The notes under the pieces were generated by a model. That model had not been told where the DNA came from. It saw nothing but the letters and a program-made list of their open reading frames with translations, and did not search any database. 64,000 nt of DNA from Hyaloraphidium curvatum. Taxonomy: Eukaryota > Monoblepharomycota > Hyaloraphidiomycetes > Hyaloraphidiales > Hyaloraphidiaceae. Within the stretch, counting starts at the first letter, position 1, and each line of letters starts with the position of its first letter. Shown here one piece after another: positions 36,295-57,132 of the stretch. The stretch is taken from assembly GCA_025558095.1 (NCBI GenBank), contig JAIVFI010000020.1, positions 124,001 to 188,000 of the forward strand, in the 5' to 3' direction. A program made the translations under genes and the position numbers.

Positions 36295-37990
36295 ATGGAC
36301 TCGGTCGCGACGCCTGCCGATCATGCTGCCGACGGTTCCTCCAAGCCGGCCGGGTTCTTCCTCCCCGAGGACCTCGCCGCAGCGTTCCCGCGGCCCCTGC
36401 CGCCACCGGGCCCTTGGGACCGCGGCAGGCCCTCCAACCCCGCCCCGGCCGCACCGTGCACGGAGGACGCGCTCATGGCCGCGCTGGAGCCGTACCCGAC
36501 CCTGCGGACGCTCGCGAAATGGCATCTGACTCTGTTTTGGATGCCGTCAACGCTCCTGGTGCGCTATTCCGTTACGAGCGCCGTCGTCGTGGCGTTTTGC
36601 GCGTGCGCGCTCGTCTTCGGCGGGGACACTTTCGGGGCGCGCCAGCTTATTGGCGGCTTCGTGCTTGTGGCGATCTACTGCGTCGCGATCCCCACCGTGT
36701 GGTTCGCCGCGCAGGTAGTGTTTGTGGCTCGCCTCGTCCCCGACATGTTCCCGACTTTGGCGGCGGCCGCGCGCATTTTGCTGCGGGGCCAAATCCGGCC
36801 CGCTGTCGACGGAGACAATCTCCGGATGTACATTCTGTCGGGCTACGCCATGGTGCCCGCGTGGGCGCGGTGCGTGAAGGACGGTGCGCTTTTCGCAACC
36901 GGGCTCGGCCACGTGGAAGGCGATTCCGAGTGCACATGCGCCGCTCAGCGTTGCTCCGGCGGCCTATTGACAGCCGCCGCGCGCCAGTGGGCGTTCAGTG
37001 TTACTGCTTGGTTGATCCTGTCTCTGGGGCCGTTCGTTTTCATGGGCTGGACGCCTTTGTTCTCCCTCCCGCAGGTCTGGGCTCACGCATGGGGCATCTT
37101 CCTTGGGGTCTGCTTCTGTGGGTGGCGGGGGCGGCCGGGCTTTGGAGTTTGCCAGCTGACACACCCGTCACCTGTTCCGCCGCGGCGGCAGGTCTCGCAG
37201 TGGTGCACATGGCGGCCGAGCCATTCGCCAATCCGACGGCGGAGAATATGCTCCTCAGATTGGAAGGCCGCGTCCGCAGGAGGCTGCTACGCCGCGCTCT
37301 CGCTGCCTTCCTCGACCGCGCACGGCACGCCGCCCTCGCCGAGAGAGCTTTCCCGGCACCTAAAGATCTTTGGGGATTGCCGGAAGAGCCGTACATGCAG
37401 CTCCGCGCCGAGCTGCGGCCGCGGTGGCGGCAAGATGTCTCGTCAAACACCATCCCCTTTGTCTACCCCATCTTCATCGGCCTCTCGATCCTCCTGATGG
37501 CCGCCAGCATCGTAAGTCAAGCCCTCCCTGCCCCCCAACCCTGCCCCCACTGCCCACCCCCGCCCAGATCATCGGCACCTGCATCCCGGCATGGATGCTT
37601 GCAGTCCTCGCCCACTTCGCTTACTACCTCCTGCGCGACCTCTGGCACGCCGCCGTCGCCAACTCCGAGATCGCCTCCGTCGGAGACCTATACACCTCCG
37701 CGCTCGTCGAAACCCGGGACCTCCTCGTTTCCGCCTCCCCCCCTTCCCCGGACTCCGCTGACGCACCCCGTGTTTCGGCGCTGCGGCGGCACCTCAAATC
37801 CCACGCTGCCGCGCTCGAACTCTACGCCGGCGAAGCCCGCGACGCGAGGCGCCGGTTCCTCGGCGTCGCCGTGGGATTCGGGTCGTTCAGGGGCCTGCTG
37901 GTGTCGCTGGCGACGGTGGTGTTCGCGGCGTGGGGGCTGATGAGGGGTTTCGGGGTCGCGGCGACGCTCGAGACCGTGTGTCCGGGCTGA
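36295..37990 (+). CDS. multi-pass membrane protein of an undescribed family, intact member
   Basis: Predicted 521 residues: exons 36295-37117, 37192-37511 and 37568-37990 (1566 bases, introns 74 and 56). After a Pro-rich N-terminus there are about seven hydrophobic segments, including RYSVTSAVVVAFCACALVF, LIGGFVLVAIYCVAIPTVWF, FSVTAWLILSLGPFVFMGW, PIFIGLSILLMAASI and AWMLAVLAHFAYYLL. Between them lies a loop with CTCAAQRCSGGLLT (36931-36972). The C-terminus reads VGFGSFRGLLVSLATVVFAA, WGLMRGFGVAATLETVCPG. Both blocks recur in the broken paralogue at 55.7-57.1 kb. No known transporter or receptor signature was recognised. Confidence 0.75.
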
Positions 37991-38323
37991 TATTGGGGTG
38001 AGCGGGGAACGGCGGACCCGGGCGTACCAGAGGACTTGGAGTAACCTATGCAGCGCAAAACGTGGGTTTCAGCTTTGGCTTGCATGATGTCATTGCGGAG
38101 CCAACCGTCTCTCCTGGCGGCAGTGGAGAACCTGTTTCAACCTGCGGCGGAGAATGAAGATATTCGGCAGCTCCTACAGCGGCCCTTTTTGTTCTTGGTC
38201 GAAATCGAGGCGGCCGTCGGCAGGGAGCTTTTCGGGCGGAGGGTCGCAACGGCCTACAACTAGACGACAGCAGCGAGTACATTTTGCAGCCCAAAGGCCA
38301 ATACAACTTCCATCCACCCTCCT
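37991..38323. other. intergenic between convergent genes
   Basis: 333 bases where the membrane-protein gene (rightward) and the secreted repeat gene (leftward) converge. No gene seen; it holds 3' ends only. Confidence 0.4.
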
Positions 38324-39391
38324 TCAAGTCAGATACTGCACTACAAATCTGCTGTCGGCCGGCTGCCCGTCCGCCGCGAAGCACCACACGTCGACGTACG
38401 CCCCGCCCCACCCAAAGATCGAGCACCTCCTCCCCTCGTCCCCGACCGCGTCGACATGCGGGCTGCCCGGTCGCACCTGATCCACCGGCAGGCCGTGGAC
38501 GAAGCGGTAGCGCCCCACTCCGACCCGCGAGACCATGTTCCCCGTACCGGCGGGCTGGGAGCGCCACTGGAACGCCGACAGGGGCGGGTACGAGGCCTGC
38601 GAGCCGGGCCGCTCCGCCAGCGCGTAGGCATGGTTCATGGGAAACGCCGAGAGCGGCTGCCTCTCGGTCCAGATGAGCGAGAAGGGCGAGTCCCCGTCGT
38701 TGATCCGGTACCGGCACCGGACCTGCACGACAAGGGGGCTGCCGCCCCACCCGACCAGCGAGCAGCGGCTCTGACCGCCGCGCACAGCAGTCACCTTGGC
38801 CGTGCCGCGAACACCGTTGACGATGGCGGGGAAGGTGACGTTGTACCTGCCCTGCGCGATGCGTCGGACGGTCGCTGGCGGTCCGGGCGGGCCGGCCTGA
38901 ACCGGGGGAGAGTAGGGCGCGGCCGCGGTGGGCAGGTTGGCCAGGACGTGCGCCCATCCGGGGGGCCGGCCGTCGGCGTTGGTGAACATGACGGTGAAGC
39001 GCGAGTCTTTCAGGTTGGCGGCCTTGTCGAAGCACTTGACCTTCACCCGCACAGCGGTGGCGAGGATCGTCCAGTCGTCCACGGTGCAAAAGTCGCCGTA
39101 CCCGGGGCCGTAGGCCGATGCCGCGACGGCGCCGCGGAAGGGGCCGCCGCCGACGCGGGGGAACCGCACGTCGTAGCGGCCGTAGGCGGTGCGCGTGATC
39201 GAGGCGGACTCGGTGGGTGCGACCGAGTTCCACGCGAACCGGGCCTTTTGGGGCTGGTTGTACGGGGTCGAGGGGTCGGCGCACCACGCGTACGCGGCGC
39301 GGGTGACGGTGGCGGCCGAGGGGGCGGGCGCGGCGAGGAGCAGCGCGGCGGCGAGCGCGAGCAGCGCGGCGGCGGGACCGGGGCGGTGCAT
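38324..39391 (-). CDS. secreted bacterial-type triple beta-repeat protein
   Basis: Single exon, 355 residues. An Ala/Leu signal peptide (MHRPGPAAALLALAAALLL) is followed by three units of about 100 residues. Each has an aromatic opening (RAAYAWCADP, PPLSAFQWRS), a GRYDVRFP/GRYNVTFP/GRYRFVHG strand, a G-rich stretch, a CTVDDW/CSLVGW/CSIFGW motif, a VxVxC strand and DSxFxV at the end (DSRFTVMF, DSPFSLIW, DSRFVVQY). Repeats of this kind are familiar in secreted actinobacterial and other bacterial proteins of unknown role. Two Cys per unit suggest one disulfide each. Intronless among multi-exon neighbours, which favours acquisition from bacteria. Confidence 0.75.
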   Translation of the reverse strand: MHRPGPAAALLALAAALLLAAPAPSAATVTRAAYAWCADPSTPYNQPQKARFAWNSVAPTESASITRTAYGRYDVRFPRVGGGPFRGAVAASAYGPGYGDFCTVDDWTILATAVRVKVKCFDKAANLKDSRFTVMFTNADGRPPGWAHVLANLPTAAAPYSPPVQAGPPGPPATVRRIAQGRYNVTFPAIVNGVRGTAKVTAVRGGQSRCSLVGWGGSPLVVQVRCRYRINDGDSPFSLIWTERQPLSAFPMNHAYALAERPGSQASYPPLSAFQWRSQPAGTGNMVSRVGVGRYRFVHGLPVDQVRPGSPHVDAVGDEGRRCSIFGWGGAYVDVWCFAADGQPADSRFVVQYLT

Positions 39392-39981
39392 TGCTTCGGC
39401 TAGTTGACGCGCAGTGGTGGCAGAGCAGCACTTTTGTGTTTGGCGTTGCCGCATCGGGTGGGCCGGAATGACGAAATGCTGTGGCGGGACGAAGCGGAGC
39501 TGTGCTTTTGATCCGTCCGCCGAATCCCGCCCGCTCGCTCGCTCGCTTGCCACGTCCACAGGCCGAACAAATGACTCCACTAAGGTCTGGAGCGATATCT
39601 TCTGCCTTCCAGCTCTCACTGGCCGCGGAAGCGGCGTTGCTTATGCGCAAACGGCCGGCTTGGGGTCCTCCCGCGAGCATGCGGAACGGCTGCCAAGCCC
39701 CGACTGCCACCGCACGACCATCTGCGGCAAATGACGTCAACAGCTTGCGCAAGTGCCGGGCGCTAGACCGCGCACCACTGCTTGGCCGAATGTCGAAGCG
39801 CGCGAAGTGATCGCGGACGTGGGAAGCTTCGGGACCGGAGCTGCCGCATGAGGCGCGGATGGTGTCTCTGATGAAGTTTGGGCAGGATGCTTCCTGGTGG
39901 AGGACACGCCGCACAGTAGCGTTGACCGATAGATTGTTTCATGCGCGATGCTGTGGCAATGGCGGGCGAGCCTGTCCCAAC
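39392..39981. other. intergenic, no gene recognised
   Basis: 590 bases separating two leftward genes, containing the promoter of the secreted repeat gene. Open frames here are short and have no family-like sequence. Confidence 0.4.
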
Positions 39982-41310
39982 TCATCCAGCATCCGACCCT
40001 GCCTCGCTCCCCGAACCTTCCTCGTCGGACCCAGTCTCCCCTCCCGATCCCCCGCCGCCGCTCCCGCCGTCCCACTCGGATCCGCTCTCGAAACCCTCCA
40101 GCGCCTCCTCCCACCATCCCCCGTCCCGCACGGGGATCTCAACCCGCGGCTGCGCCGCCCAGAACGCCTCCTCGGCCCTCGCGGCGCGCACCTGTTCCGC
40201 GTCGACCCAGGACCCCTCCATCGTGTCCCAATCCGGCTCGATGCGCAGCGCCGTCCGCGACGCGGCCGCGGCGGCCCGCACCGCGCCGAACGCGGCCGGG
40301 GAGAGGTCGAGCCGGCACCGCTCGAGGACCAGCTCCTCCAGCGCGGTCCAGCAGCCGTCCGCGAGGATGGCGGTGCGGTGCATGGCGAGCTCCAGGGAAG
40401 CGAGGCCCGGGAACGCGGCGAGCACGGCGCGGAGGTCGGCGCGGTTCGGGGATTCGGAGCGGAAGCACAGCCGTCTGGCGCGGGGGAAGGCCCCCGGGAC
40501 GAGGGTCCAGAGGGCGGAATCCGACGCGGGGAGCTCGAGTTCGTCGAGCCGGGCGGCGACGTTGGGGAAGCGGCGGATGGCGCTCGGCCAGTCGAGCCAG
40601 CCGGGGGCGGTCCCGGGGGGCGGACCGTCGTCGACCGGGTCGAACAGCGAGAGCGCTTCGAATGTTGCGAGGCAGTCGAGGCGTTGCAGGAGGGGGAGGA
40701 AGTGCGCCGCCTTGGGATCCCCGGCCGGCCGTTCGGGATCGTAGATGCCGTTAATGGTTGCCCGTCGCAGCGCGGCGATGCTCTCGGCCGCGCCGAGGAA
40801 CGACATAATTCCGGCCGTGCAGCTGGCGTAGATCGTGAGCTCTTCCAGCGAGGGGCCGACGCCGGCGAGGAGCGCGGCGAAGAACGGGTCCGCGCAGGAC
40901 ATCCCGACGGAGAGCTTCCTGACCATGCGCAGCTTCCCGAGCCCGAGTCCGTCCGCGAGGAGGCCGCGGAACTTGTCCAGGAAATCGCCCGGGCCGTCGC
41001 CCTGCTCGTCGACGAACTGCAGCGCGGTCGCGTCCCACCTCCGCCGGGGCTCGTCCGTCACATCCAGCTCCCTGACCAGGATCCCCATCCCGAGCTCCAT
41101 CATGGTCCGACACGTGGAGAGCAGGTTGAGCAGCGACCGCCGCTGGAAGCTGCTCAGGAGCAGTTCTCCGAGAAGGAGCATGATGTCCGCGGGGAGCGCG
41201 GCGAACGGTTCGTCGGTCCACTCCTCGGCCGGGTCCGCGGCAGATGCATGTTCATCGGGCTGCGAGGCATCGGTTTCCTGTCGCACATCGGCGGCAGTGA
41301 GCTCTGCCAT
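39982..41310 (-). CDS. F-box-like protein, single exon
   Basis: 442 residues. After an acidic N-terminus, FAALPADIMLLLGELLLSSFQRRSLLNLLSTCRTMMELG matches the F-box pattern (LPxDIxxxIxxxL...LxxLxxxCRxM), the Skp1-binding helix set of SCF ubiquitin ligases. The rest is irregular Leu-rich (LEELTIYASC, RLDELELPAS, ALEELVLERCRL), as in LRR-type substrate receptors, and ends in a Gly/Ser/Glu-rich tail. Starts are 117 bases apart from the divergent hydrolase gene. A related but frame-broken gene lies at 53721-54681. Confidence 0.72.
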   Translation of the reverse strand: MAELTAADVRQETDASQPDEHASAADPAEEWTDEPFAALPADIMLLLGELLLSSFQRRSLLNLLSTCRTMMELGMGILVRELDVTDEPRRRWDATALQFVDEQGDGPGDFLDKFRGLLADGLGLGKLRMVRKLSVGMSCADPFFAALLAGVGPSLEELTIYASCTAGIMSFLGAAESIAALRRATINGIYDPERPAGDPKAAHFLPLLQRLDCLATFEALSLFDPVDDGPPPGTAPGWLDWPSAIRRFPNVAARLDELELPASDSALWTLVPGAFPRARRLCFRSESPNRADLRAVLAAFPGLASLELAMHRTAILADGCWTALEELVLERCRLDLSPAAFGAVRAAAAASRTALRIEPDWDTMEGSWVDAEQVRAARAEEAFWAAQPRVEIPVRDGGWWEEALEGFESGSEWDGGSGGGGSGGETGSDEEGSGSEAGSDAG

Positions 41311-41426
41311 TGCGACAAACGCGCAAGCGTCGGTCTGTTTATCACCGTCCCCAACTGCCCGACCGAAAGGCTTCGCTTTTCAGTAGTGTACTCGTTTAGA
41401 TTCGGCGTCAGGACCGAAGCGGAAGG

Positions 41427-42341
41427 ATGCGCACGGTCTCCTTCACCGTTTCCGTGCCGCCGCCCTCGCACCCCGACTCGCTGGTCTGGGGCGACGACCC
41501 GGCCCGCGACCCAATCGACCTCGCGTGCCGGCTGGACCGCCGGGGAGGTCCTCGTCAGGGGATCGTTGTCCTGTGCCACGGCCTCCTGGACAACAAGGAG
41601 AAGCCGCTGGTGTCGGCGCTGAGGGAACGGCTGCCGTGCGATGTCGTCTCGTTCGACTTCAGGGGCATGGGGGGTTCCGGCGGGAGCACTTCGTTTGCCA
41701 ATCACGGCTTGGACGCGGACGATATCCACCACGTGATCTCGCATGTGGAGGACCATTTCGGACCCGTCCTCTGCGTGGTGGCACACTCCGCTGGCGGCGC
41801 CGCCGGCTGCATCTGGGCGGCGCGGTATCCTCTGCAATCCGCGCGCGTCGGCCGACTCGTCACCGTTTCGGCGCTCTACTTTAACGGCGTGCCGCCGCCG
41901 GACGGCCACAGGAACCCGGATCCGCTGAAGCTGGCCAAGGGCAGCAGGCCGGAGCCGCCTTACCTGTTTGCGACCTACCGCCGCGGACCGCCAGGAGCGC
42001 GCAACGAAACAGTGGACGTCTTCGTGACCGAGCGCGCGCTACAGCTCCGGAACGAGGTGCTGCCCATGAGCCGGCACGTTCCCCGGTTCCCGCATTCGCT
42101 GTCAATGCTGGCGCTCATCGGCGGGGCGGACAGGCTGATTGTCGCGGAGCGGGACGTGCCGCTCTGGAAGGCCAGCTTTCCCGGGGCCGACATTACGGTG
42201 AAGGTGCTCGACGGGTGCGAACACAACTTCAGGGAGACGCGGGAGCAGGACGTTGCCGTTGCCGAGGTGTCGAGCTGGCTGGAAGCGCGATGGCCCGCGG
42301 AGCTGGAGACGGTAGGAGCATCCGCGGAAGCAAAGCTCTAG
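41427..42341 (+). CDS. alpha/beta hydrolase with C-terminal AKL (peroxisomal) signal
   Basis: Single exon, 304 residues, serine hydrolase of the alpha/beta fold. VVLCHGLLDNKEK gives the oxyanion loop, VVAHSAGGAAGCIWA the nucleophile elbow (Ser near 121), LIGGADRLI the acid (about 234) and GCEHNF the His (about 265). The last three residues, AKL, fit the PTS1 consensus [SAC][KRH]L, so import into peroxisomes is likely. Substrate unknown; related proteins act on esters or acyl chains. Confidence 0.8.
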   Translation: MRTVSFTVSVPPPSHPDSLVWGDDPARDPIDLACRLDRRGGPRQGIVVLCHGLLDNKEKPLVSALRERLPCDVVSFDFRGMGGSGGSTSFANHGLDADDIHHVISHVEDHFGPVLCVVAHSAGGAAGCIWAARYPLQSARVGRLVTVSALYFNGVPPPDGHRNPDPLKLAKGSRPEPPYLFATYRRGPPGARNETVDVFVTERALQLRNEVLPMSRHVPRFPHSLSMLALIGGADRLIVAERDVPLWKASFPGADITVKVLDGCEHNFRETREQDVAVAEVSSWLEARWPAELETVGASAEAKL

Positions 42342-42369
42342 AGCTAGAAGCAACAAGGAAGGATGCCAA

Positions 42370-42858
42370 TCACTTTGCGATTCCGAGAACCTTCCAGACG
42401 GTTTCGGTCGTCCGGAAGAAGGCTCCAACGTGAGGCACCACCCCGTCCGCCGCCGCTGCCGCTCCGTCCACCCCGTTGTTCAGGACCAGCAACGCCGCGT
42501 GCAGAACCCCCATGAACGCGTCGCTGATCGCTAGCGACGCCATGCCCGACGGCCCCTCCCCCTTGGCAACGAGGTACCAAATGGCGGAACCGGCGGCAGC
42601 GTGGACGGCGACGCTGGCCGCGAGGAACCGCGGATCGTCCCGCATCGCGTACTGCAGCGCACCGGCGGTGGCAAAAGCGATGCCGAGGAACTTTGTCGCC
42701 GCGGAGGTCGCAAAGACGGGTGCGGTCGATTCCAGCTTCAGTGCCTTGTTCTGCGCGTCCAACGCGCCGGAAACCAGGTCGCCGCGGCCGAGGAAGAGTG
42801 CCAAGCCACCTGCGATGTTGGAGAGCGCGGAGAACGCCCAGAGAAAGGTCGATGCCAT
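42370..42858 (-). CDS. small four-helix membrane protein
   Basis: Single exon, 162 residues. Four hydrophobic segments: FLWAFSALSNIAGGLALFL, TKFLGIAFATAGALQYA, LAASVAVHAAAGSAIWYLVA and ISDAFMGVLHAALLVLN. The layout, including the Asp-containing third turn, recalls small 4-TM proteins of the DoxX/TMEM type, but I cannot name a family. It diverges from the epoxide hydrolase gene, 98 bases between starts, and the two could be co-regulated. Confidence 0.6.
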   Translation of the reverse strand: MASTFLWAFSALSNIAGGLALFLGRGDLVSGALDAQNKALKLESTAPVFATSAATKFLGIAFATAGALQYAMRDDPRFLAASVAVHAAAGSAIWYLVAKGEGPSGMASLAISDAFMGVLHAALLVLNNGVDGAAAAADGVVPHVGAFFRTTETVWKVLGIAK

Positions 42859-42956
42859 TTCGGGCGGATTCCGGAGTTATGTTCTGGATGGGAGACGGGG
42901 GGCCGGATGAACTCGCCCTTATTCCGGCGGTCCGTTCCCTCTCATCCAATCACGCA

Positions 42957-44141: not shown

Positions 44142-44257
44142 TCTTTGGGTCGGAATGTGATAAAGCTTGGTTAGAACTCTGCGATGTGCGGCTACAAAAG
44201 CGTCGATCTGTTTACCCTTTCAAGACGCGTTCTAGTGCTTCGTCCACCGTCCCCGCG

Positions 44258-45313
44258 ATGGACGACGAGGCCGCGCTCCGGCAGTGGGACGCCGGCTCGG
44301 TGTCGCACCCGCCGCCGCACGCGCTGCCCGCGGCGGCGCTCGTCCCGTTCCTCAACCCGCCGCCGCGTGGCCGCCCGCCGTTCGCGCCGGTCCCCGTCGC
44401 GCGCCTCGCCGCCGCCCGCGCGCGGTGGAGCGCCCCGCCCGGCGACGCCGCCGCCGTCGTCGACGAGTTCTACGCGGGGCTGGCGGCGCAGCGGGGAGCG
44501 GTGGGCGGGCAGGGCGACTTCGGCGAGGAGGAGGCGGCGGGGGGCGGCGACCAGACCGGCGGGTACGAGTGGGACGGCGAGGGCTGGGAGAAGGGGTACC
44601 TGGACGCGTGGTACGCCGTCGTGGGGGCGCACAACGCGGAGGTCAAGGCGCGGGGCAGCCTGGGCGGGGGGAACGGGACCGGGCTGCAGGCCGCCGGCAG
44701 GAACGACGCCCGCGGGAGGAGCAGGGACGCGCAGCGCGACCGGGACCGCGCGAGGCAGAGGAGCAGGGACCGCAGCGGGTCGCCGCAGCGGGGCGGGGGC
44801 GGGGGAGGCCGGGGGAGGATGCGCACCCCCTCGCGCTCCCGATCCCGTTCCTACTCGCGGTCACGATCGCGCTCCTACTCGCGGTCGCGATCCCGCTCCC
44901 GCTCCCGCTCGCGGCAGCGCTCGCGCGACCGCCGCCGCCCCCCCTCGCGGCGGCGCCGGCGCTCCCCCTCCCGCAGCCGCTCGCGCTCCCCGCCGCGCCG
45001 CAGGCAGCGCCGCTCCCGCTCGCGGACGCCGAGCAGGGACCGTGGGGGAAAGCGCCGCGCGAGGTCACGCTCCGGCTCCCCGCCGTACCGGCCGTCCTCG
45101 CGGTCCCCACCCCGCGGCGGGGGCAAACCGGCAATGGGCACGCAGCGGACCATCGCGCCGCGCCCCAACATGCCCGCTGCGCAGCCGGCGGCGGCGCAGC
45201 AGAAGCCAGCGGACCCGCTGGACGACATGGTGGAGAGGTTCAGGAAGCAGAAGAGCCAGCAGGTGCAGATGATGCTGGGGATGTACGGAAGGAGGCCCGG
45301 CGGGCCGGAGTGA
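44258..45313 (+). CDS. RS-domain (Arg/Ser-rich) protein
   Basis: Single exon, 351 residues. Residues 1-130 are an Ala/Pro-rich region with acidic patches (DEEAALRQWDAGS, YEWDGEGWEKGYLDAWYAVV); about 170-300 is an Arg/Ser dipeptide domain (RSRSRSYSRSRSRSYSRS and similar) typical of splicing regulators. It ends PLDDMVERFRKQKSQQVQMM. No RRM was recognised. The N-terminal Trp-rich block could bind a partner. Expected to be nuclear and phosphorylated on the RS domain. Confidence 0.68.
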   Translation: MDDEAALRQWDAGSVSHPPPHALPAAALVPFLNPPPRGRPPFAPVPVARLAAARARWSAPPGDAAAVVDEFYAGLAAQRGAVGGQGDFGEEEAAGGGDQTGGYEWDGEGWEKGYLDAWYAVVGAHNAEVKARGSLGGGNGTGLQAAGRNDARGRSRDAQRDRDRARQRSRDRSGSPQRGGGGGGRGRMRTPSRSRSRSYSRSRSRSYSRSRSRSRSRSRQRSRDRRRPPSRRRRRSPSRSRSRSPPRRRQRRSRSRTPSRDRGGKRRARSRSGSPPYRPSSRSPPRGGGKPAMGTQRTIAPRPNMPAAQPAAAQQKPADPLDDMVERFRKQKSQQVQMMLGMYGRRPGGPE

Positions 45314-45449
45314 GGCGCCGAGGCGGGACGGCGACGGTGTGCGGTGGGTTGGGTTCGGGAGGGGACGGACCTGAAGGGCGTTCCGTGCGGGATGACAAGG
45401 AAGATCGAATCGATTCTCTCTCCAAGATCGCCCGGTCTTGCCTGCCCTT

Positions 45450-46706
45450 TCACCCATCCTCGCCCTCCACGCCCTCCTTCTCCTGCACCAGCACCGGGAG
45501 CCCCAGCCTGCGCTGCATGCCCTCGACCGCGCTCCGGCCCGAGGCGTACCAGGCCGCGCTGCCCACCAGAAGCCGGCCGTCGCCCGGCCGTTGCTCGACC
45601 GGGCCGGGATCGGCGCGGAGAGGGGAGCCCGCCTGATCGCCCGGGTCCACCGGAGGCCCGCCTGCATCGTCCGAGCTGGCGGGCTCCTCGGCGATCTCGG
45701 GGTTCCTCGCCAGTTCGCACTTCCTCGAACCTCCTCTTCTTCGGGGGGAGGTGCTCGAGCGCCCTCGCTCGCGCTCGGCGGGTCTTGGGCGGGGAGATCG
45801 GTGCGCGGGCTTTCGCTGCGGTGCTCCACCTCGCGGCTCTCCGCCGGCAAACGATCGAGCCTCCGCTGCGCGAACTCAAGGCCCTGGACAGCTGCCTTGC
45901 GGAACCACTTTGCCGCAGCCACGAGATCCTGAGCGACGCCCTTGCCGTTCTTGTAGCACAATCCGAGGTTGTACTGCGCAACCGCGTGGCCCTGGTCAGC
46001 CGCCTTGCGGTACCATCGCGCCGCTTCGGCAAGATCCTGCGGTACGCCCTCGCCCTTCTCGCAGCGCACTCCGACCTCGAACTGCGCCTCCACGTGGCCC
46101 TGCTCGGCCGCTTTGCGAAGCTATTCCGCCGCCAAGACTGCGTCCCGGTCGACGCCGTCGCGGCCGACCGCGCAGCGCTTTCCGAGTTCGTACTGCGCCC
46201 ACAGGTGACCCCGTTCAGCCATTATGCGGAGGTCCGTCACCTCGGTGAGGTGCGGATCGCAAGGATTGCGCGCGGTTTGTTTGGTCCTCGGCATCGCGAC
46301 GCACGCGGCTTTGCCGTGCGTTCTGGATGTTGTGGTGGCTGACCGATGACGTGGCCGTGCCGCCTCCGGTCCCGCGTGCACGTCGGTCCGCGCATGCCCA
46401 TCTCCAAATGCCAGGTCGCGGGCCACAGACAATGCGGACAGGAGGATCGAAGGCCGAAATCCTTCCGATAGGAGCCCAGGGCAATCGAGATCGATTCCGA
46501 TGTATTCCTCCCGTCTAAGTCTGCGATCAAGACCACTGTCTGCAGATGTCCTTGTGCTCCTTCCACGCGGCCCGCTGGCAGTTAGTACCGCAGTACCGCG
46601 TGACCTTGCACCCGCCGCATCGCATGAGGCGCTCCGCCTGGGCGCCGCACCGGTCACATAGGTCACCGACTTCGCCGACGAAAAGCTCGTCGTCGTCGTC
46701 TATGGT
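45450..46706 (-). CDS. MYND zinc finger plus Sel1-repeat protein
   Basis: Reading leftwards, DDDELFVGEVGD leads into CDRCGAQAERLMRCGGCKV, TRYCGTNCQRAAWKEHKDIC, a complete MYND finger. After an intron come TEVTDLRIMAERGHLWAQYE and Sel1 repeats: QGHVEAQFEVGVRCEKGEGV, ARWYRKAADQGHAVAQYNLG and FRKAAVQGLEFAQ. The C-terminal exons include PPKKRRFEEV, ELARNPEIAEEPASSDDAGG and DGRLLVGSAAWYASGRSAVE. Sel1 repeats scaffold protein complexes. The first exon and some 3' junctions are unresolved; no ATG precedes the MYND block in frame, so an upstream exon lies between 46710 and 46945. Confidence 0.62.
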
Positions 46707-48043: not shown

Positions 48044-48130
48044 ATCGGCATATCGCAGTCGCCGCTCTGACCTTCGACGTCTCTCTGCAGCCTCGCCCTA
48101 ACCGGCCTCTCTTTTTCGTTTTCGAAGAAG

Positions 48131-48334
48131 GTGACTGCCACGTCGACGCTCTCGGTTTCGACCACCCCGGAAGGCCGCCGATTCTTGGGCGGATGGACCC
48201 GCACCACGGGGAAGGTCATCCATGCTACCGAAAAGAGGGTACGAATCACGGGGGAGGTCGCGGACGAGGCGGGACGCTTGCTGATGACGGCGGACGGGGA
48301 ATTCGCGGCGATCGGGCCCCTTTCCATGCTGTGA
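48131..48334 (+). pseudogene. thioesterase-like fragment
   Basis: 67-codon frame whose part TGKVIHATEKRVRITGEVAD, EAGRLLMTADGEFA looks like the last two strands of a hotdog thioesterase (strand, then GRLLxxAxGxF). No N-terminal half is present upstream. A remnant or chance resemblance. Confidence 0.25.
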
Positions 48335-48691
48335 TCTCAATCCGAACCGCTGCCGCCCGCACGGGCTACCTAGAACGTGCTTCAGGTTCCTGGTGAACTG
48401 CTGCTAGGAGAGAACGTGTCGGGCTTATTTTGGCGGCGAACCCCGAGGCGTCGGCAGAAGTTGACCGCTTGCGCGCCCAGGCTTAGTGTTCTATGCCAAG
48501 TCGTGGAATGCTACAACAGTTAAGGCCTTATATCGAGCTGGATTCGAGACATGGCCATCGGATCGACTGCTCCAGGGTGACGTGTTTGCATGTTTACGGT
48601 CCTCCGTGCGCGTCACTCATAGTTGCGCGCCTTTGCTGCCCCAACGACCTTGACACGGGCATCGCCCTAGCTTTTCGCGACCGTAACGGCG
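48335..48691. other. intergenic, promoter of MYND gene
   Basis: 357 bases without a coding signal; lower GC than the flanking genes. Confidence 0.35.
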
Positions 48692-49999
48692 ATGGCGCAC
48701 TCGTGCGGCGGCTCGTGCGGCCACGCCCACGGCCCGCCGGCGCGCAACCCGGGCCTCGCGCCCATCGCCCTGTCCACGCCGGCGGGCTCGCCGTGGGCGG
48801 GCTTCGACGCCGCGGCCTTCGCGGACCACGTGTGCGCGCTGCTGGACGGCACCGCGGCCCTGCGCGAGGCGTACTTCGTGCCCGGCTGCCCGGCCGACGC
48901 GGCGGAGCTGTACGCGGTTGCGGCGCGGTATCGCCGCTCGTTGGACCTGTCCAGGTACCTCGTCGTATTCCTCTCGCCGATGGCCATGGTCGAGAAGTAC
49001 AGGAGCGATTGGAAGGGCAGGAGCCCGGAGGAGTACGAGGCCGCGCGGCGGACCCTGGCCGGCTTCCTCCCGGACGGGCGCGCGGCGCCGGAGGAGGCGC
49101 TGCCCGAGGCCACGTTCCACGAGCTGGCGCTGGCGCTCCACCGCAGGACGTACCACCACATCAGGCTGGCACTCATGGAGTGGGCGGACCAGGAGCGTCG
49201 CAAGGCGTGGGGCCTCGAGGAGCTCGACATGGAGGGCGCGCCCGCCTGGGACGCCCTCGCGTGGGACCGGTACGAGCGGTGGAAGGGCGCATACTGGCCC
49301 CTCTTCTACGCTGCCGCCCAAATACTGAACATGCTGACCACGGCCGCGCCCGTGCGCCGCCGGGTGGCTCAAGACATCGAGCTGCTCGACAGGATCGCCG
49401 TCGGCATGCTTCTCATGCCCGAATTCTACCTTTTCGCGCGGTTCCCCCGAGGACCCCCACCCGCCTTCTTCCCGCCCCGCTCCCGCGCCGACCTCGCCAG
49501 CCGGGGCTTGTGGGAGTTTGTCAACTTTCTCCCGCTCCTGCCCAACATCTTCGTTGTCCATCCCGGCCCGTGGCGCCGGCACACCCGCGCGCTCCTCCGC
49601 GCCGGCCGCTTCGCCCCCGGCGCTTTCCTGTGCGACGCCATCGGATCGTTCCTCCGCGCCCCGGAGCTCGATGCCTTGCCCGAGCTGCACGACGAGGTGC
49701 ACCAGATGAACCACACGCTTGCCATGATGAGGGACGGGCTGCGTATCGGGAGGAGGGAAGAGATGACGGACTACGAGCGGGACTGGAAGGACGCGGCGCG
49801 CGGGCTGGGCGCCATCTCGGACACGTGCGACAAGTGCGGCAGGGTCCCCGAAGAGGGACAGAAGTTCAAGAAGTGCGCGAGGTGCAAGGCGGCCTGGTAC
49901 TGCGGGCCCGAGTGCCAGCGCGAGGCGTGGAAGGCGTGGCACAAGGAGGTCTGCGTCGAGGTCGCGGACGGCGCCGGGGAGGGGGCGTCGGCGGCATGA
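48692..49999 (+). CDS. MYND zinc finger protein, single exon
   Basis: 435 residues. The MYND finger is near the C-terminus (about 378-418): CDKCGRVPEEGQKFKKC, ARCKAAWYCGPECQREAWKA, WHKEVC, with all Cys/His ligands. Upstream is a mostly helical region of about 370 residues with no recognised domain (for example YRRSLDLSRYLVVFLSPMAM, LALALHRRTYHHIRLALMEW). The first residues, MAHSCGGSCGHAHG, are Cys/His-rich and might bind metal. MYND proteins are numerous in early-diverging fungi and act as interaction modules. Confidence 0.75.
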   Translation: MAHSCGGSCGHAHGPPARNPGLAPIALSTPAGSPWAGFDAAAFADHVCALLDGTAALREAYFVPGCPADAAELYAVAARYRRSLDLSRYLVVFLSPMAMVEKYRSDWKGRSPEEYEAARRTLAGFLPDGRAAPEEALPEATFHELALALHRRTYHHIRLALMEWADQERRKAWGLEELDMEGAPAWDALAWDRYERWKGAYWPLFYAAAQILNMLTTAAPVRRRVAQDIELLDRIAVGMLLMPEFYLFARFPRGPPPAFFPPRSRADLASRGLWEFVNFLPLLPNIFVVHPGPWRRHTRALLRAGRFAPGAFLCDAIGSFLRAPELDALPELHDEVHQMNHTLAMMRDGLRIGRREEMTDYERDWKDAARGLGAISDTCDKCGRVPEEGQKFKKCARCKAAWYCGPECQREAWKAWHKEVCVEVADGAGEGASAA

Positions 50000-50083
50000 C
50001 CGGAATCGTTGTGATTGTTTCGTAGAGTGTCGGTTGTTCTGAATCCTCTTGATTTATATCTCATCGTGCTTTAGTCAATTGCG

Positions 50084-51532
50084 CTACGCCCCGGCTTGCT
50101 GCGCAACCAGCCCCGTCCGCTCGCAGATCGCCCTCTGCACCTCGGCCGCCCTCCTCACCACCTCGCCCGGATTCAAATTCACCATCCTCCCCGCCATCTT
50201 GAGCACTCTCCCGTCAACCACCACCGTGTCCACGTTCGCCGGCGCCGCGTGCTGCACGAGCTGGAACGCCGGGTCCGCGCCGGGCGCCGGGATCATGTTG
50301 GGGTCGCCGGTGCGCACGAGGATCAGGTCGGCGCGCTTGCCCGGCGTGAGGGAGCCGGTGATCGCGCCGAGGCCGAGCACTTTGGCGCCGTTGAGCGTGC
50401 CCAGCTCGAGGATCTTGCGGGGCGGGAACAGCGGCACCGGCGGGCCGGCGCCGAAGAGGTCCTCCGCGACCACGCGGTCGAACGACGCACCCGGGCCGCG
50501 CTGCGCGACGCGGGCGGCGTTGCAGAGGATGCGTACCGAGGCGAAAGGGTCGGCGGGGGTCTGCGCGGTCACGTCGACCGAGAAGGAGATGTCCTCGAAG
50601 GGCACTCCGGCCTCGAGAAGCTGCTGCAGCGGGGGGTAGCCGGCGCCGATGAGCGGGTCCGTGGCGGGGCAGAGGGAGACCTTCATCCCCGATTGGGCGA
50701 CGTGCCGAAGCTGCTCGGGCGGAGCGCCGGCGCCGTGCGTGAAGAGGCAGTCGGGGCCCACGAGCTCGGGGTGCTTGGAGTAGTCCGCGTGCAGGCCGAT
50801 CGTGGGCAGGCCGAGCTCGCGGGAGGCTTTGATTTCGTCGGCCAGGGCGGCGCCGTTGTGGATCGCAAGGCCCAAGGTGAGCCTGCCGTCCCCGTGCTCG
50901 GCCTCCCATTCTTTCGCGCGCCTCAGGTCGTCAACCGTCAGCGGCTTCTGCACCAGCGGGAACGAATCGCAGTAGCCGAAGCGCGCCCGCAGGCCCGAAT
51001 CCACCAGGGCGCGCATCTCGGCCTCGGCGTCGGCAAAGTCCTTGAGCGAACTCGTCCAATTATGCACCGTCGTTATCCCGGCACTGACCGCCTCGAGCGC
51101 GGCGTAGCGCACGGCGTCGTAGTGGTCCTGGGCCGTGAACGCGCCCGCCGTGCGGCCCGTCATGGCGAAGTAGCCTTTCGCGTCATGCGTCAGGCCGCGG
51201 AGGACGCCGTTCCACATGTGCCAATGGGTTTCGACGAAGCCCGGCATCGCGATCATGTCGGTGCCGTCGATCACCTCGGCTCCCGCGGCGTCCAGCATGC
51301 CCGTGGGGCCGACGGCCGCGATGCGCCCGTCACGGATCAGCACGTCGCCGGCGGGGAAACCGCCAAGCGACGCGTCCATCGTGAGAGTGTGAGCGCCCTT
51401 GATCAGGAGGTCCTGCCGTGGCATGGCTCCGGGGGTGCGAGCGGCCGCCATCGCGGAGAATGTGAAGTGGAAGACACCGTGAGCGGGAGGCAAGGTTGGG
51501 GCGAGGCGGGTGAGGAACCGGTCCGTGCGCAT
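50084..51532 (-). CDS. amidohydrolase (TRZ/ATZ, chlorohydrolase-deaminase type)
   Basis: Metal-dependent hydrolase/deaminase, single exon. LLIKGAHTLTMDASL and ADVLIRDGRIAAVGPTG-type strands open the composite domain; the barrel carries METHWHMWN (HxH), GLAIHNG, IGLHADYSKH (His), SLCPATDPL, and FSVDVTAQTPADPF (Asp). The end GSLTPGKRADLILVRTG closes the sandwich. Substrates could be N-heterocycles or nucleosides. Starts at 51532 (482 residues), 51451 or 51424 (446 residues) are possible; the longest adds an Arg-containing N-terminus that could target mitochondria. Intronless and bacterial in appearance. Confidence 0.83.
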   Translation of the reverse strand: MRTDRFLTRLAPTLPPAHGVFHFTFSAMAAARTPGAMPRQDLLIKGAHTLTMDASLGGFPAGDVLIRDGRIAAVGPTGMLDAAGAEVIDGTDMIAMPGFVETHWHMWNGVLRGLTHDAKGYFAMTGRTAGAFTAQDHYDAVRYAALEAVSAGITTVHNWTSSLKDFADAEAEMRALVDSGLRARFGYCDSFPLVQKPLTVDDLRRAKEWEAEHGDGRLTLGLAIHNGAALADEIKASRELGLPTIGLHADYSKHPELVGPDCLFTHGAGAPPEQLRHVAQSGMKVSLCPATDPLIGAGYPPLQQLLEAGVPFEDISFSVDVTAQTPADPFASVRILCNAARVAQRGPGASFDRVVAEDLFGAGPPVPLFPPRKILELGTLNGAKVLGLGAITGSLTPGKRADLILVRTGDPNMIPAPGADPAFQLVQHAAPANVDTVVVDGRVLKMAGRMVNLNPGEVVRRAAEVQRAICERTGLVAQQAGA

Positions 51533-51919
51533 TCCCCCTCGCCTACTGCTCCCCTGGGCACTAGCCAGTTGAATGCATGGGCAAGAAGATGCTGGGACGC
51601 CGATGAATGGAGCTTGGCCCCACGCGTCACCGGCGGATGTGTCTCAAGCTCATGTCTTGTTTCGGCGGCCCTCTGGCGCGGTAATGAAGCCTACGCGGCG
51701 CGTAGCCCGGTCGATGATTTCAGTTTCGCACCACGACGAGCAGAGAAGGCAGGCTGCTTCCGATTTCCGAACATTCTTGGGGATTGTGCGCGGGTGAATG
51801 GTGTGAAGCCTTGCAAGCCGACCGATGACTTTCACCTGCCGCACCGGACACGCGTCGCACGGCACTCCGCGTCCACCGCGTCTTCCGGCCACTTCCGCGC
51901 CACGACAGCTGCCAAGGTG
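51533..51919. other. divergent promoter region
   Basis: 387 bases between the amidohydrolase start (leftward) and the orphan gene start (rightward). No coding signal recognised. Confidence 0.4.
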
Positions 51920-53510
51920 ATGCGCTCCGACGGTGCCGACGCGTGGCGCTCCGGGGCCGCGGCCGGCGACCTCTTCGCGTGCGAAGCCGCGTGGCTCGCG
52001 TCGGCGTCTCCCCGCCGCGACAGCTCCCGCTCCGGCCGCCGGCGCGTCGCTCTCGGCGCGGTCTCAGGAAGGAGCCTGCCGCCCGCGTGTGACGGCCCGC
52101 GCCCGACCGCCTGCGCCTTCGCCTTCCGCGCTGCCGTCCCGCCGCCGAACCCCGTCCGCGAACCGCGCCCCGCGTCGCCGACCGCCCGCCGCATCCTCGC
52201 GCGCTACGCTCTTGGAAGCGATCTCGGCTCCGACGAAGACGGCCGTGCACGTCTTGCCGCCCTCGCGCTGCTGCACGACCAGCCTGTCGCTCTGCTCTCC
52301 GCCCTTCGCACGCTCGACGGGAACTTCCTCTGCCCGGACCCCGACAAACCACGCAGGGTGGACTGGCACCCCGGCCTGGACCCCGGCAGCTACCCCTCGA
52401 CGCTTTCGGTCGCGCTCGTCGCCGCCGCCGTCGACGCGCCCGCGTGCTTCATCGCGCTCCCCGGCTCGGCGGCGGCAGACGTGCCGATCGGCGACGTTCT
52501 GCGCACTGCGGTCGAGAACTTTTCCGTCGGCGTCGTCGGGGTGCTCGTCTCGCTCGCGGGGAGGCCGGGCTGCATGGCCGCGGAGGAGCTTGCTGGGCCC
52601 TGGAGGGACTCGGTGGCGGGGGTGCTGGACAAGGCTGAGGACAGGCGAAAGCTGGTCGACAGGGCGTGGAAAGGGGAGCTGGAGCTCAGGAAGCTGCACG
52701 GGAAGGAGGGAGAGCTGCCGGCCGAGTGGGAGGCGAGGATCGCCGAGACGATGGGGCTTCTCAAGGTGACGTGCGCTGACGTGCGCCTTCCGCTCGACGA
52801 CTTACCATCCCCCCACCGCACAGGCCGCCTTCCTCCGCATCGAATCCGCTTACCCCACCCTCGCGGACCTGTACACGCTCGACGGCCCGCACTCTCACCC
52901 TGTCCTGTACCCGCCGCGCCTCCCCAACGCCCCGGTCGTCTCGTCGCTCCTCTCCTCCGAGCTGTCGCACGCCGTGCTGCCCTGCCACGCGGAGCACGCG
53001 TTCCCGGGACTGCTCATTGCCCCGGCGATGCCCTCGACCGCGTGCGCCGCGCTCGTCCGCATGCTCTCTTCGTTGCCGCGCGCATCCGCCGCCGAAATGC
53101 TGCCGCCCTACCTCCCGCAGCTCCTCTCGCGTTGCCGCTCCCCCAAGGTGATGCGTTTCCTGGTCAAAGAAGGCATGCTCCCCCCCTCGGGCTGCGTTGC
53201 GATGTTCCTCGCGGGGGAACCGCCCGATGGGAGCGGACTGCGCGCGCTCAAGGTGCTCCTGGACCACGCCGCGCGCCGCTCCCCTCTTTCGCTCGTCGGG
53301 CTGCACGGACGCTACGTTGCCCGCCTCTCCCGGCGCGGCGATCGGGGAGCAGGAGGGGCGGGGAAGCTGCTCGCGGTGTACGACCCCGTCGCGCAGGGCG
53401 AGGACGGCGAGGCGGGGAGGGCGTGGAGGGGGTGGTTGCGCACGGGAGGATTGGGCGGGCTGCCGGAGGAGGTGGGGTGGGAGGTGGCGCTGCTGAGCTG
53501 GGGGGCGTGA
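51920..53510 (+). CDS. orphan 510-residue protein, two exons
   Basis: Start ATG 51920 (MRSDGADAWRSGAAAGDLFA). Exons 51920-52765 and 52824-53510 (1533 bases, 58-base intron after the codons for GLLK). The joined junction reads MGLLKAAFLRIESAYPTLAD. Ala/Leu/Arg-rich with no transmembrane or signal segment; segments such as STACAALVRMLSSLPRASAA and FLVKEGMLPPSGC suggest a helical-repeat fold. A family was not recognised. Codon use matches the rest of the window. Confidence 0.6.
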
Positions 53511-53720
53511 TCGGGCGGCGGAGGCGGGACGGGTCGGTGATCGGAGGCAGGAACGGGCAGGGGACGGTTGTGCGATACCCGGATACAACGAAGTGCTTGT
53601 CGCGTTGGTGGAAGGGGGTGACGTCCTGCGTGCCGGCTCAGAGGCGGGCCCTCCGCGGCCAGTGAGGGGCGTGCGAATCCAACTCGAACACAACGGCTTC
53701 TCCGTGACTCCACCGCCAAA

Positions 53721-54681
53721 ATGGCCCACCACGCCGCCGAACAGGGCACTCCCGCCACCGAAGCGCAGCCGGAGCCCGGCGTTGCGTCGTCGCCGGGCGC
53801 GGCCGCCTCAAACGCGCAAACCGGGCAGAGCCCCCTTTTCCTCCCGGAGCTGCTCCTCCACGTCGCCTCGGTCCTCCCCGCCGGTTCGCGCAGCCTCCTC
53901 GAGCTGATGCTCGCGTGCCGCGAGTTCCACCGCGCGCTGCTTCCGCACCTCATGTCCCGGTTCTCGGGGAAGTGGCTGCCGCATCGAGGAGTTCGTGGGG
54001 GCGCTGGAGCGGAGCGACAGCCTGCGGTTCGTGAAAGACCTGGACCTGAGAGGTTCCTGCACGAATGGGGAGCGCATGCCAGACGGTTTCAATGGCCGGG
54101 TCCTTCTGCCGTGCAGCGGACCGGAGGCTGCGCTCGTGAGGCTGTCCCTGATCCTGGACAACGAAACGGACGCGCAGATCTTTCTGGACGCAGCTTTCCC
54201 GCACCTGGAATATCTGGATCTCAAACTCGCTGTGATGCCGCCGGAGCCGCCCGCCTTTCGCTTCCCGCCTTGCCCGAAGCTGCGCCGGCTCGTGATACAG
54301 ACGGCCTACGATGATCAGTTCTTCGCTTCCATAGAAGCTGCCTACCCTGCTCTCGTGGAAGCGCATTTGGACGTGGCTTTTCGTTTGGGCAGCCACAACG
54401 CGTGGTTTTCCATGTGGTTGCTGGCCAGAACCTCGACATTTACGAGCTACCACCCGTTCAAGCTCGCCCATCTCGCAAACGTCCCGCAATTCGCGCCCAA
54501 AACTCTCAAACTCAGGATGCCCAAACTCACGGTGGCTGCACCTGCCGTCTCGCGGTGCAGCAGCGTGGATCCGACGATTCGGACGGTGGCAGCGAAGCAT
54601 CCGATCTCGAAAGCGAAGGAGCACACTCCGGCAGCGAAGCTGGGCCTGGAGAAGATGAATAGGAGAAGACCGGGCGAATAG
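53721..54681 (+). pseudogene. F-box-like gene with a frame break
   Basis: MAHHAAEQGTPATEAQPEPG is followed by FLPELLLHVASVLPAGSRSL, LELMLACREFHRALLPHLMS, an F-box. Right after HLMSRFSGKWLP the frame changes: RIEEFVGALERSDSLRFVKD, LDLRG and a Leu-rich region (LRRLVIQTAYDDQFF) continue in a different frame. The gap could only be a 29-base intron, too short to be credible, so a one-base indel is more likely. The rest is intact to 54681. It is either a recent pseudogene or has a sequencing error. Confidence 0.5.
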
Positions 54682-54697
54682 ACCTCGATCCGCCACC

Positions 54698-55408
54698 TTA
54701 GTTCACATCTGAGGTCTGCACCCTGCGCATCTCCTTCGTCGCATCGTAGCCCTTGCTCTTCAATGTTTCCGTCACCCATGCCCGATCCCACGTTCCCTCA
54801 TCAATCGCCGTCTGCGTCATTCCCTCCTTCTCGTGGAGCCTCTCTGCGGCTTCCACAACCGCCTCGGCCTCCTCGCGCGGCACAACCACCAAGCCGTCCA
54901 AATCCGCGACGAGGAGATCCCCCGGCATCACCACCAAACCCCCGCAGCACACCGGCACCCCGATCTCCCCCGGCCCGTCCTTGAACGGCCCCGCCGGGGT
55001 CGCCGCGCGCGCCCAAACACCAATGTCCAGCGTCCGCAGCGTGTCGACGTCGCGCACCGCCCCGTCGATCACGAAACCCGCGATCCCTCTCGACGCGGCG
55101 TACGACGCCATGAGCTCCCCGATCAGCGCTACCGTCACGTCCCCCGCGCCGTCGACCACCAGAATGTCCCCCGGCTCCGCGAGGTCCAGCGCGCGATGGA
55201 GGAGCAAATTGTCCCCCGCGCGCACCCGAACCGTCAGCGCGGGCCCCGAGATGGACGCGCGGCCGCCATAGCGATGGAATGGCACGCGGGCGGATTGCAT
55301 GCGCGACATGGCGTCCCCCAGGTTTGCCGCGGGGAGGCGCGACGCGCGGGCAGCGATCTCCGCGGGGGCGCGTGGGAAGTGCGCGACGATGCGGGTGCCG
55401 ACGACCAT
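54698..55408 (-). CDS. RraA-like / 4-hydroxy-4-methyl-2-oxoglutarate aldolase family
   Basis: Single exon, 236 residues from the ATG read leftwards from 55408 (MVVGTRIVAHFPRAP). Motifs: ANLGDAMSRMQSARV, ISGPALTVRVRAGDNLLLHR, PGDILVVDGAGDVTVALIGE, GIAGFVIDGAVRDVDTL, PVCCGGLVVMPGDLLVADLDG and VVVPREEAEAVVE. The GAVRD Arg and GDxxxxD loops are those of RraA-like aldolases, which cleave oxoglutarate derivatives or decarboxylate oxaloacetate; true RraA proteins inhibit RNase E and lack the aldolase loops. The full catalytic set suggests an enzyme. Intronless, possibly of bacterial origin. Confidence 0.85.
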   Translation of the reverse strand: MVVGTRIVAHFPRAPAEIAARASRLPAANLGDAMSRMQSARVPFHRYGGRASISGPALTVRVRAGDNLLLHRALDLAEPGDILVVDGAGDVTVALIGELMASYAASRGIAGFVIDGAVRDVDTLRTLDIGVWARAATPAGPFKDGPGEIGVPVCCGGLVVMPGDLLVADLDGLVVVPREEAEAVVEAAERLHEKEGMTQTAIDEGTWDRAWVTETLKSKGYDATKEMRRVQTSDVN

Positions 55409-55664
55409 CGCTCGCTCCGGCCAGCGAAGCTGATCTCGGAGCCGATGAATAGGAAAAGGACAGCGCGAGTCGACCTGCCCGGGAGACGTCCAGGATGTGC
55501 TTTGGCCGCGTCGATCACTCGGCTGGCTGGAGCCGGAGGCAGCAAGAGTTGGCACGCGCTCCGTGAGGTCCGTCAGGTCCGTGAGGCCTCGGGATACGCC
55601 ACGTCGCGTCCCGTCGTTGCTACGGAAGCCATCTTTCGGCAGTCCACGCCGGAGCGGGCGAGAA
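55409..55664. repeat. degenerate copy of the end of the F-box gene
   Basis: Bases around 55426-55486 (AGCGAAGCTG...GATGAATAGGA.AAG...GCGA.TCGACCTG) resemble 54638-54700 at the end of the F-box-like gene. An apparent short duplication; the rest of the stretch holds the RraA gene's promoter and no gene. Confidence 0.45.
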
Positions 55665-57132
55665 TATGCCTCCCCCGGAGGCCACCGCGCTGTCGGCCGC
55701 GGAATGGCTCGTGCTCTTCCCCGGCGGCAGGACAAAGGCGCCCTCCCGCCCGCTCGCCGACCTTCCCCAGGCTGCGCGACGAGGATCCGCTGACGGCGAA
55801 GCTCGTCGCCGAAACCTTTGCTTCCGCCGGCCTGCGCTCCATGGCCCGCCTGGTGCGCTTCCATGAGCTGGTGCCTTTCGTCCGGATGTAGTTTCGGCTG
55901 CTGCACCTCGTGCTGTGGGGTGTCGTGCCGGCTCTGGTCTGGACGGGTCTTTACGCAACGGAGAACCCATATAGCCAGCGGGCCACCGCGGCCGGTCTTG
56001 TCGTCGCCCTGCTGGTAACATGTGAGCCGTCGATCTACGCCCTCTGGGATTATCTGGCGAAGTTTGGACTCCAAAAGCCAGCTTCTGCCATCCCTTACGA
56101 CACATTGGCTCCCGGAGCCATGGTCAGGTGGCTGCAGCTCTGCAATCGTTGCGGCAGTTCGGCACAGAAGAGCGAGACCTCGGTGCTACTTCTGCACGAC
56201 GAGGACGATGCCATGTGCTCGTGCCCGCGCGAGGATTGCGCCGGCGGACAGCTGACGCGGGACTCGTTTCTTCGTTTCATTGACTTTGTCAGCGACATGC
56301 TCCGTACGTCAATCGTGCTTCCGCTATTGCTGTGGACTCCGATGGTCTCCCTCGCAAACGAGGGTTTCTGGACCTCGTGGTGCGTGACTGGGTTCGTCGC
56401 TGCCCTCATTTGGCTCGTCGTGGTTTGCCCTTTCGCCCTTCATCGCGAGAGATTGCCGTTCACACTGGGGCCAGCGCGAACTTCTTGCGGCGGAACCTTC
56501 ACCGGGCGCTCTCTTCGTCTCTGCGCTCCTTCCTACGGCGCTACCGGGATTTTCTCTCTCAAGGCACCGGCACGAATCCTGCAGCGGTTTCCTCGGTCGA
56601 GCTGCACCCGCGCATTCTTGCCTTGCTGGCGCAAGCTTGGGCCGCCCCGCTTGCCTACTTGGACATCATCCGCCGGCACATTGTCACGACCATAGCCGCC
56701 AACCTCATTGCCTTCGTCGTGAACCTCGCAGTCGGACCCTGCATTGCGGCCTACCAGATCGCCGACGTCGCCGGCCTCATTCTCCTCGTTGCGCGGGATC
56801 TCCTGACCCTCGCGGCGTACAACGCCCAGGTGGAGGACGTGGCCAATCTCTGCACCGCCGCCGCCACCGCTTCCCGCAACCTACTGGCGGAATCTGCGGG
56901 CAACTCGCCCGATCCGGCGGCCTTTGCCGCCCTCCGTGCGCATGCGGACCTGCTCTCGGATGCCGCGGCGTCGGCGCTGGGGCAGCGGGTCAAGTTCCTG
57001 GGGCAGCCGATCGGGTTCGGGACCGCGAGGGGGCTGGCCATCACGGGGATCACGGTCATGTTCGCAGCGGTGGGGGCGATGAGGGGATTCGGGGTGCGCA
57101 TCGTGCTCGAGACGGTCTGCGTCCCCGGGTGA
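55665..57132 (+). pseudogene. broken paralogue of the 36.3 kb membrane protein
   Basis: Blocks in order match the intact member: a start MPPPEATALSAAEWLVLFPG, DEDPLTAKLVAETFASAGL, MARLVRFHELVPFVRM, then an in-frame TAG (55889-55891), FRLLHLVLWGVVPALVWTGL, CSCPREDCAGGQLT (56216-56257), hydrophobic helices, a frame change near 56449, and the C-terminus IGFGTARGLAITGITVMFAA, VGAMRGFGVRIVLETVCVPG. The early stop and frameshift make a functional product unlikely, though most of the coding sequence is well preserved, so inactivation is recent or due to errors. Confidence 0.6.

Follow-up and report, generated by a model that had tools for sequence, protein, structure and literature searches.

A large lineage-expanded family of predicted seven-helix membrane proteins in Hyaloraphidium curvatum

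The window, that is, the whole stretch of 64,000 nucleotides analysed here (positions 124001-188000 of contig C20 of Hyaloraphidium curvatum), contains two related genes on its forward strand (Table 1). Gene 1 (36295-37990) is intact, its three exons encoding a protein of 521 amino acids between an ATG at 36295 and a stop codon at 37990. Gene 2 is an intronless pseudogene that extends from approximately an ATG at 55668 to a stop codon at 57132 and is disrupted by two frameshifts and an in-frame stop. The sequence-only reading of this DNA had proposed a gene at 36.3 kb and a broken copy at 55.7 kb, and both were found there. Relative to L061, its closest intact relative (69% DNA identity), gene 2 has lost 14 bp near 55766 and 1 bp near 56436, and its in-frame stop is the TAG at 55889-55891.

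Table 1. Positions of the two genes and their features within the window.
Feature	Position	Strand	Basis
Gene 1 exon 1: start codon, cytosolic N-terminus (predicted), TM1-TM4, H-x6-C-x-C-x4-C loop	36295..37117	+	ORF, splice comparison
Gene 1 H-x6-C-x-C-x4-C (His206, Cys213, Cys215, Cys220), putative cytosolic zinc site in the loop TM2-TM3	36910..36954	+	Invariant in 50/50 full-length relatives; predicted membrane side
Gene 1 intron 1, 74 bp, GTGGGT...CAG	37118..37191	+	Donor and acceptor kept in L032-L038 and L041
Gene 1 exon 2: loop TM4-TM5 and TM5	37192..37511	+	Family model match, splice comparison, alignment
Gene 1 intron 2, 56 bp, GTAAGT...CAG	37512..37567	+	Kept in relatives
Gene 1 exon 3: outer-side Cys (TCIPAW, 37580-37582), TM6, loop 6, TM7, tail ending ETVCPG, stop	37568..37990	+	Family model match, splice comparison, alignment
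Gene 1 C-terminal signature RRRFLGVAVGFGSFRGLLVSLATVVFAAWGLMRGFGVAATLETVCPG	37847..37987	+	Tail search of the genome, 150 or more matches, E 1.1e-6 or better
Gene 2, pseudogene derived from an intronless gene whose closest intact relative is L061, MPPPEATALSAAEWLVLFP...LETVCVPG	55668..57132	+	Three frames; lesions relative to L061
Gene 2 H-x6-C-x-C-x4-C loop	56195..56239	+	Family alignment
Gene 2 TM7 and C-terminal signature	56983..57129	+	Tail search, family model, alignment

The donors and acceptors of both gene 1 introns are kept in eight relatives, and because of this comparison intron 1 is regarded as a true intron; the reading of this position as a frameshift was ruled out. Both introns are carried by the subclade to which gene 1 belongs, while most members of the family are intronless and encode about 500 amino acids. 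Exon 1 matches positions 9-290 of the family model. The dN/dS ratio between gene 1 and its relatives is 0.27-0.39 and the gene has no in-frame stop; it is therefore a maintained gene under purifying selection. Intron-bearing loci most closely related to gene 1 lie together on contig C1 of the same genome (1505486-1522430), and in one of them, L039, the N-terminal part joins the tail GVAATLETVCPG directly, apparently via an internal deletion.

Other genes were also recognized in the window. An open reading frame at 48671-49996 (forward strand) encodes a protein of 442 amino acids with a MYND zinc finger at its end (PF01753, E 1e-10), and shortly before the start of gene 1, at about 35.3-36.05 kb, there is another MYND-like fragment, CGRCKTAHYCSPERQRR. 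On the reverse strand, the open reading frame at 45065-46120 contains the Sel1-like repeats AEQGHVEAQFEVG and ADQGHAVAQYNLG. Adjoining gene 2, a cytochrome P450 gene with introns is located at 57.3-59.3 kb on the forward strand (PF00067, E 2.8e-51 for 58268-59293).

The distribution of related sequences was studied in the GC-rich genome of the same organism, which comprises 31.9 Mb in 55 contigs. Using the 49-residue tail of gene 1 as query yielded at least 150 matches, and among the matches listed all had E values of 1.1e-6 or lower and were free of stops. A consensus-like tail gave, for the best 150 of 504 candidates, a worst E value of 6e-11, at loci that were partly different. The union of both tail searches contains 198 loci and is a lower bound; adding unpartnered matches to the Cys loop raised the set to 290, and adding matches to exon 1 and collapsing near neighbours gave 304, these merged counts being derived from hand-transcribed positions. 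Counting tail matches only, the family thus has 198 loci or more; its probable size is about 300, which places it among the largest in its genome. We found no earlier description of it in the open-access literature, of which our coverage was incomplete, and a search with one member as query detected no homologues in IMG/VR and prokaryote genomes, collections in which fungal genes would hardly be looked for. For a single fungus, so large an undescribed family is unexpected.

Loci of the family are present on nearly all contigs and are clustered, with a median distance between neighbours of 17 kb versus 37 kb at random, and 37% of them have a neighbour within 10 kb (17% at random). Among adjacent pairs within 10 kb, 40 are on opposite strands and 24 on the same strand. 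Loci within 100 kb of contig ends are enriched (87 versus 57 expected), while the count within 50 kb is borderline and that within 30 kb is not enriched; this is not decisive for a subtelomeric location because contig ends need not be telomeres. Copy number, pseudogenes, and presence on nearly all contigs are what a selfish or spreading gene family lacking a host function would produce. We consider such an origin very improbable, since intact copies are under purifying selection (dN/dS 0.26-0.58 between close paralogs, and the values given above for gene 1) and the introns are conserved within one subclade; nor was a mobile-element feature noticed in passing.

For the analysis of conserved features, 50 intact members encoded in a single frame and a single exon (461-554 amino acids) were aligned. 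Their median pairwise identity is 26%, and the effective number of sequences is 42. Between gene 1 and gene 2 themselves, 11 of 103 positions are identical in TM1-5, and 20 of 35 in TM7 plus the tail, in agreement with the initial observation that they share little in their helices. That gene 1 and gene 2 are two members of one lineage-expanded family of membrane proteins is well supported.

Hydropathy averaged over the 50 members revealed seven transmembrane segments, with a fused peak for TM5 and TM6 that is split at a conserved GSCIPAW turn. Membrane flanks of 15 residues contain 12.6 lysine or arginine residues on the side of the N-terminus and loops L2, L4, and L6 versus 1.6 on the other side, and 50 of 50 members agree in this bias; following the positive-inside rule, the N-terminus is therefore placed in the cytosol and the C-terminus outside. 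This seven-helix topology with an inside N-terminus, predicted from hydropathy and charge, is well supported. Loops L1, L3, and L5 have lengths of 11, 11, and 3 amino acids, and loops L2, L4, and L6 have lengths of 76, 77, and 67 amino acids. Helical-moment analysis of the loops gave mixed results, with only L6b showing a peak near 100 degrees. The sequence-only reading was correct in what it observed but understated it, having missed the introns of gene 1, the size of the family, and this topology.

Residues invariant in all 50 members are P25, L186, H189, C196, C198, C203, C370, N397, G485, and C494 (consensus columns). At a median identity of 26%, the invariance of key residues in the three-Cys loop and in the C-terminal tail indicates conservation far beyond chance. 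The cysteine spacing of the CxCx4C[SA]GGxLT motif described initially is kept in all 50 members, but its C[SA]GGxLT part is looser, usually C-[A/G/S]-G. A fourth invariant candidate ligand is a histidine located seven residues before the first cysteine, so that the motif reads H-x6-C-x-C-x4-C, and this CCCH-type feature, with its four candidate ligands invariant in 50 of 50 members, lies within one loop, L2, on the predicted cytosolic side. A cytosolic Cys3His zinc site is thus a plausible assignment. The two other invariant cysteines are both on the outer side, one in the TM5-TM6 turn (SCIPAW) and one three residues from the C-terminus (CPG), and they probably form a disulfide. A metal or disulfide site had been suggested for the three-Cys loop; the metal part of this suggestion stands as a plausible one, and the disulfide is likelier to involve the two outer cysteines. 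The simplest reading, with zinc bound on the cytosolic side and a disulfide on the outer one, agrees with the predicted topology.

An invariant His/Cys cluster together with other invariant cytosolic residues might also be expected of a membrane scaffold or an enzyme, for example a zinc-dependent one, that had been expanded by gene dosage and had no sensory role. The spacing of the histidine and cysteines looks structural, not catalytic, and an identity of about 26% across some 300 copies is unlike what dosage would leave, so that we regard this explanation as unlikely.

Selection was compared between regions by pN/pS. TM7 (T-V-x-x-A-L-W-x-x-L-R-G) has the lowest value, 0.20, and is the slowest-evolving part of the protein, which bears out the proposed conservation of the C-terminal helix; outer loops 1 and 3 follow with 0.25-0.28 and the tail with 0.27. 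In TM1-6, the inner halves have a pN/pS of 0.79 versus 0.44 for the outer halves, a contrast most pronounced in TM2 and TM4 and, in seven separate pairs, larger than in any of 5000 column permutations. Conservation thus falls on the outer cap and TM7, and variation on the part of the bundle that faces the cytosol. In the classical picture, insect receptors bind their ligands towards the outside. A variable half that faces the cytosol is the opposite of what such an outward-facing pocket predicts and makes it less likely that the family simply reproduces the mechanism of insect receptors.

These values also bear on the idea that the proteins serve self/non-self or neighbour recognition, with a large, clustered, and diversifying repertoire that is not chemosensory. 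The great size and clustering of the family, its pseudogenes, and its fast-evolving parts would suit such a role. Variation would then be expected outside, whereas the outer surface is short and, after TM7, the most conserved part (0.25-0.44 for outer loops and outer halves), and the family has no extracellular domain; recognition is accordingly an improbable explanation.

The family had been called undescribed, with a Pfam search proposed as the test of this claim, and the claim held: neither the 50 members nor any piece of the two window genes gave anything above the gathering score, the best E value being 0.0084 for single members and mutually inconsistent families. None of the 50 members matched NCBIfam. 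The profile matched no PDB chain of interest: used in full or restricted to the C-terminal part, it detected no odorant or gustatory receptor chain at E<=10 in a set that contains at least 14 of them. The models PF08395 and PF12056 gave no match against the genome, and their controls were silent too. The family lacks the TM7 motif (T/S)Yhhhhh(Q/K/E)(F/L/M); of the four motif positions, only the T is kept.

AlphaFold2 was applied to pieces of the proteins. The C-terminal half, taken from gene 2, was modelled with a pLDDT of 57 and a pTM of 0.50, and the N-terminal half with a pLDDT of 46. In the low-confidence partial model of gene 2, a TM5 helix of 39 residues and a TM6 helix of 53 residues are followed by a 30-residue helix, a break at GQPIGFG, and TM7. 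The 7TMIC fold would call for this order of helices, but at such low confidence the model is a poor basis for fold searches. Matches of the partial model in Foldseek and VIA-align (syntaxin, MukF, STAT, and designed bundles) were treated as generic helical bundles.

Within the 7TMICs, which include the gustatory-receptor-like proteins (GRLs), the insect OR-GR channels, 7tm_7 (PF08395), and the plant DUF3537 proteins (PF12056), many features of the family recur: a length of about 500 amino acids, seven transmembrane segments and an inside N-terminus (both predicted here), long inner and short outer loops, a TM7 that is the most conserved part, and a large multigene family. The low-confidence model adds a TM6 extended into the cytosol and a helix-break-helix TM7. 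The family differs from them in having no detectable sequence similarity, in lacking the TM7 motif, and in possessing the invariant H-x6-C-x-C-x4-C and a putative outer disulfide. To our knowledge, neither a putative zinc site nor long, even loops with conserved soluble motifs have been seen in insect receptors. In unicellular eukaryotes, GRLs were recognized as proteins of about 350-500 amino acids with seven transmembrane segments, an inside N-terminus, longer inner loops, and a TM7 motif that many of them lack (PMC7746228). By these measures the family is of suitable length, though slightly above the range, has seven segments in averaged hydropathy, an intracellular N-terminus predicted from the charge bias in 50 of 50 members, and inner loops far longer than the outer ones; the TM7 motif and sequence or profile similarity to GRLs are absent. 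Published fungal GRLs also keep one of the four TM7 motif positions; fungal candidates so far number one per species in two chytrids, and only one to a few copies have been reported per unicellular species (PMC7746228). Later work describes the 7TMIC fold as having long cytosolic TM4-6 and a split TM7 (PMC9998090). The family is therefore built like a 7TMIC, but homology to 7TMICs is not claimed; the earlier suggestion of a 7TM ion-channel-like fold fits the architecture, but neither the sequence searches nor the fold searches with the partial model gave a match.

Other seven-helix families were also compared. In the PAQR/adiponectin-receptor family, the zinc site lies within the membrane and the loops are short. 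Seven transmembrane segments, an inside N-terminus, and zinc (putative here) are common to both, but the family described here has no Pfam match. Pth11-like GPCRs have an outside N-terminus, and some carry outer Cys-rich CFEM domains. They form lineage-expanded seven-helix families in fungi and are confined to Pezizomycotina (PMC12842992). Lineage expansion and seven segments are shared with them, but the present family has its N-terminus inside, a cytosolic Cys loop, and no Pfam match.

Based on architecture and repertoire size, we suggest that the family may consist of lineage-expanded, ligand-gated channel-like sensors, the likeliest reading but a tentative one, to which we assign a probability of roughly 35%. 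In such proteins, one histidine and three cysteines of the TM2-TM3 loop would hold a zinc ion and thereby tie the cytosolic loop together, and the outer cysteine of the short TM5-TM6 turn would pair with the cysteine at the end of the tail, locking TM7 against TM5 and TM6. The TM6 helix would run on into the cytosol, turn at a conserved proline, return as a short helix, and enter the membrane as TM7. This would be the layout of the insect odorant and gustatory receptor channels, in which the subunit anchor is made of cytosolic extensions of this kind and the pore is lined by TM7. Assembly through the conserved cytosolic part and TM7 could then produce ligand-gated channels, and members could differ in ligand or gating through their variable TM1-TM6 bundle, especially through the half of it that faces the cytosol, and together form a sensory repertoire.

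Ranked nearly as likely as channel-like sensors is a novel family of seven-helix receptors or transporters with an inside N-terminus and a fold of its own, unrelated to 7TMICs and lacking a pore lined by TM7, whose members would sense or move small molecules. It is consistent with the absence of matches in Pfam, NCBIfam, and the PDB, with the long, even loops, conserved soluble motifs, and putative zinc site, and with the position of the variable part in the inner half of the helices. However, the loop pattern and the modelled succession of TM6 extension, break, and TM7 match 7TMICs feature by feature, and a new fold is not needed to explain them.

If the proteins are sensors, one of the largest gene families of the organism would be an undescribed class of membrane receptors and would provide concrete candidate genes for how early-diverging fungi perceive their surroundings. 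If they have the insect chemoreceptor fold, they would represent a large expansion of the superfamily outside animals and bear on how such repertoires arise. A bolder reading, doubtful but possible, is that the roughly 300 proteins of this fungus share the build of insect taste and smell receptor channels, whether as the first very large expansion of that superfamily beyond animals or because the same architecture arose independently. They would then also have a zinc clamp in the cytosol and a disulfide on the outer side, neither of which is known from insect receptors.

Two further observations were made in the same genome: a search for the ciliary gene IFT57 gave one sub-threshold match, and chitin synthases are encoded (best match 609 bits).
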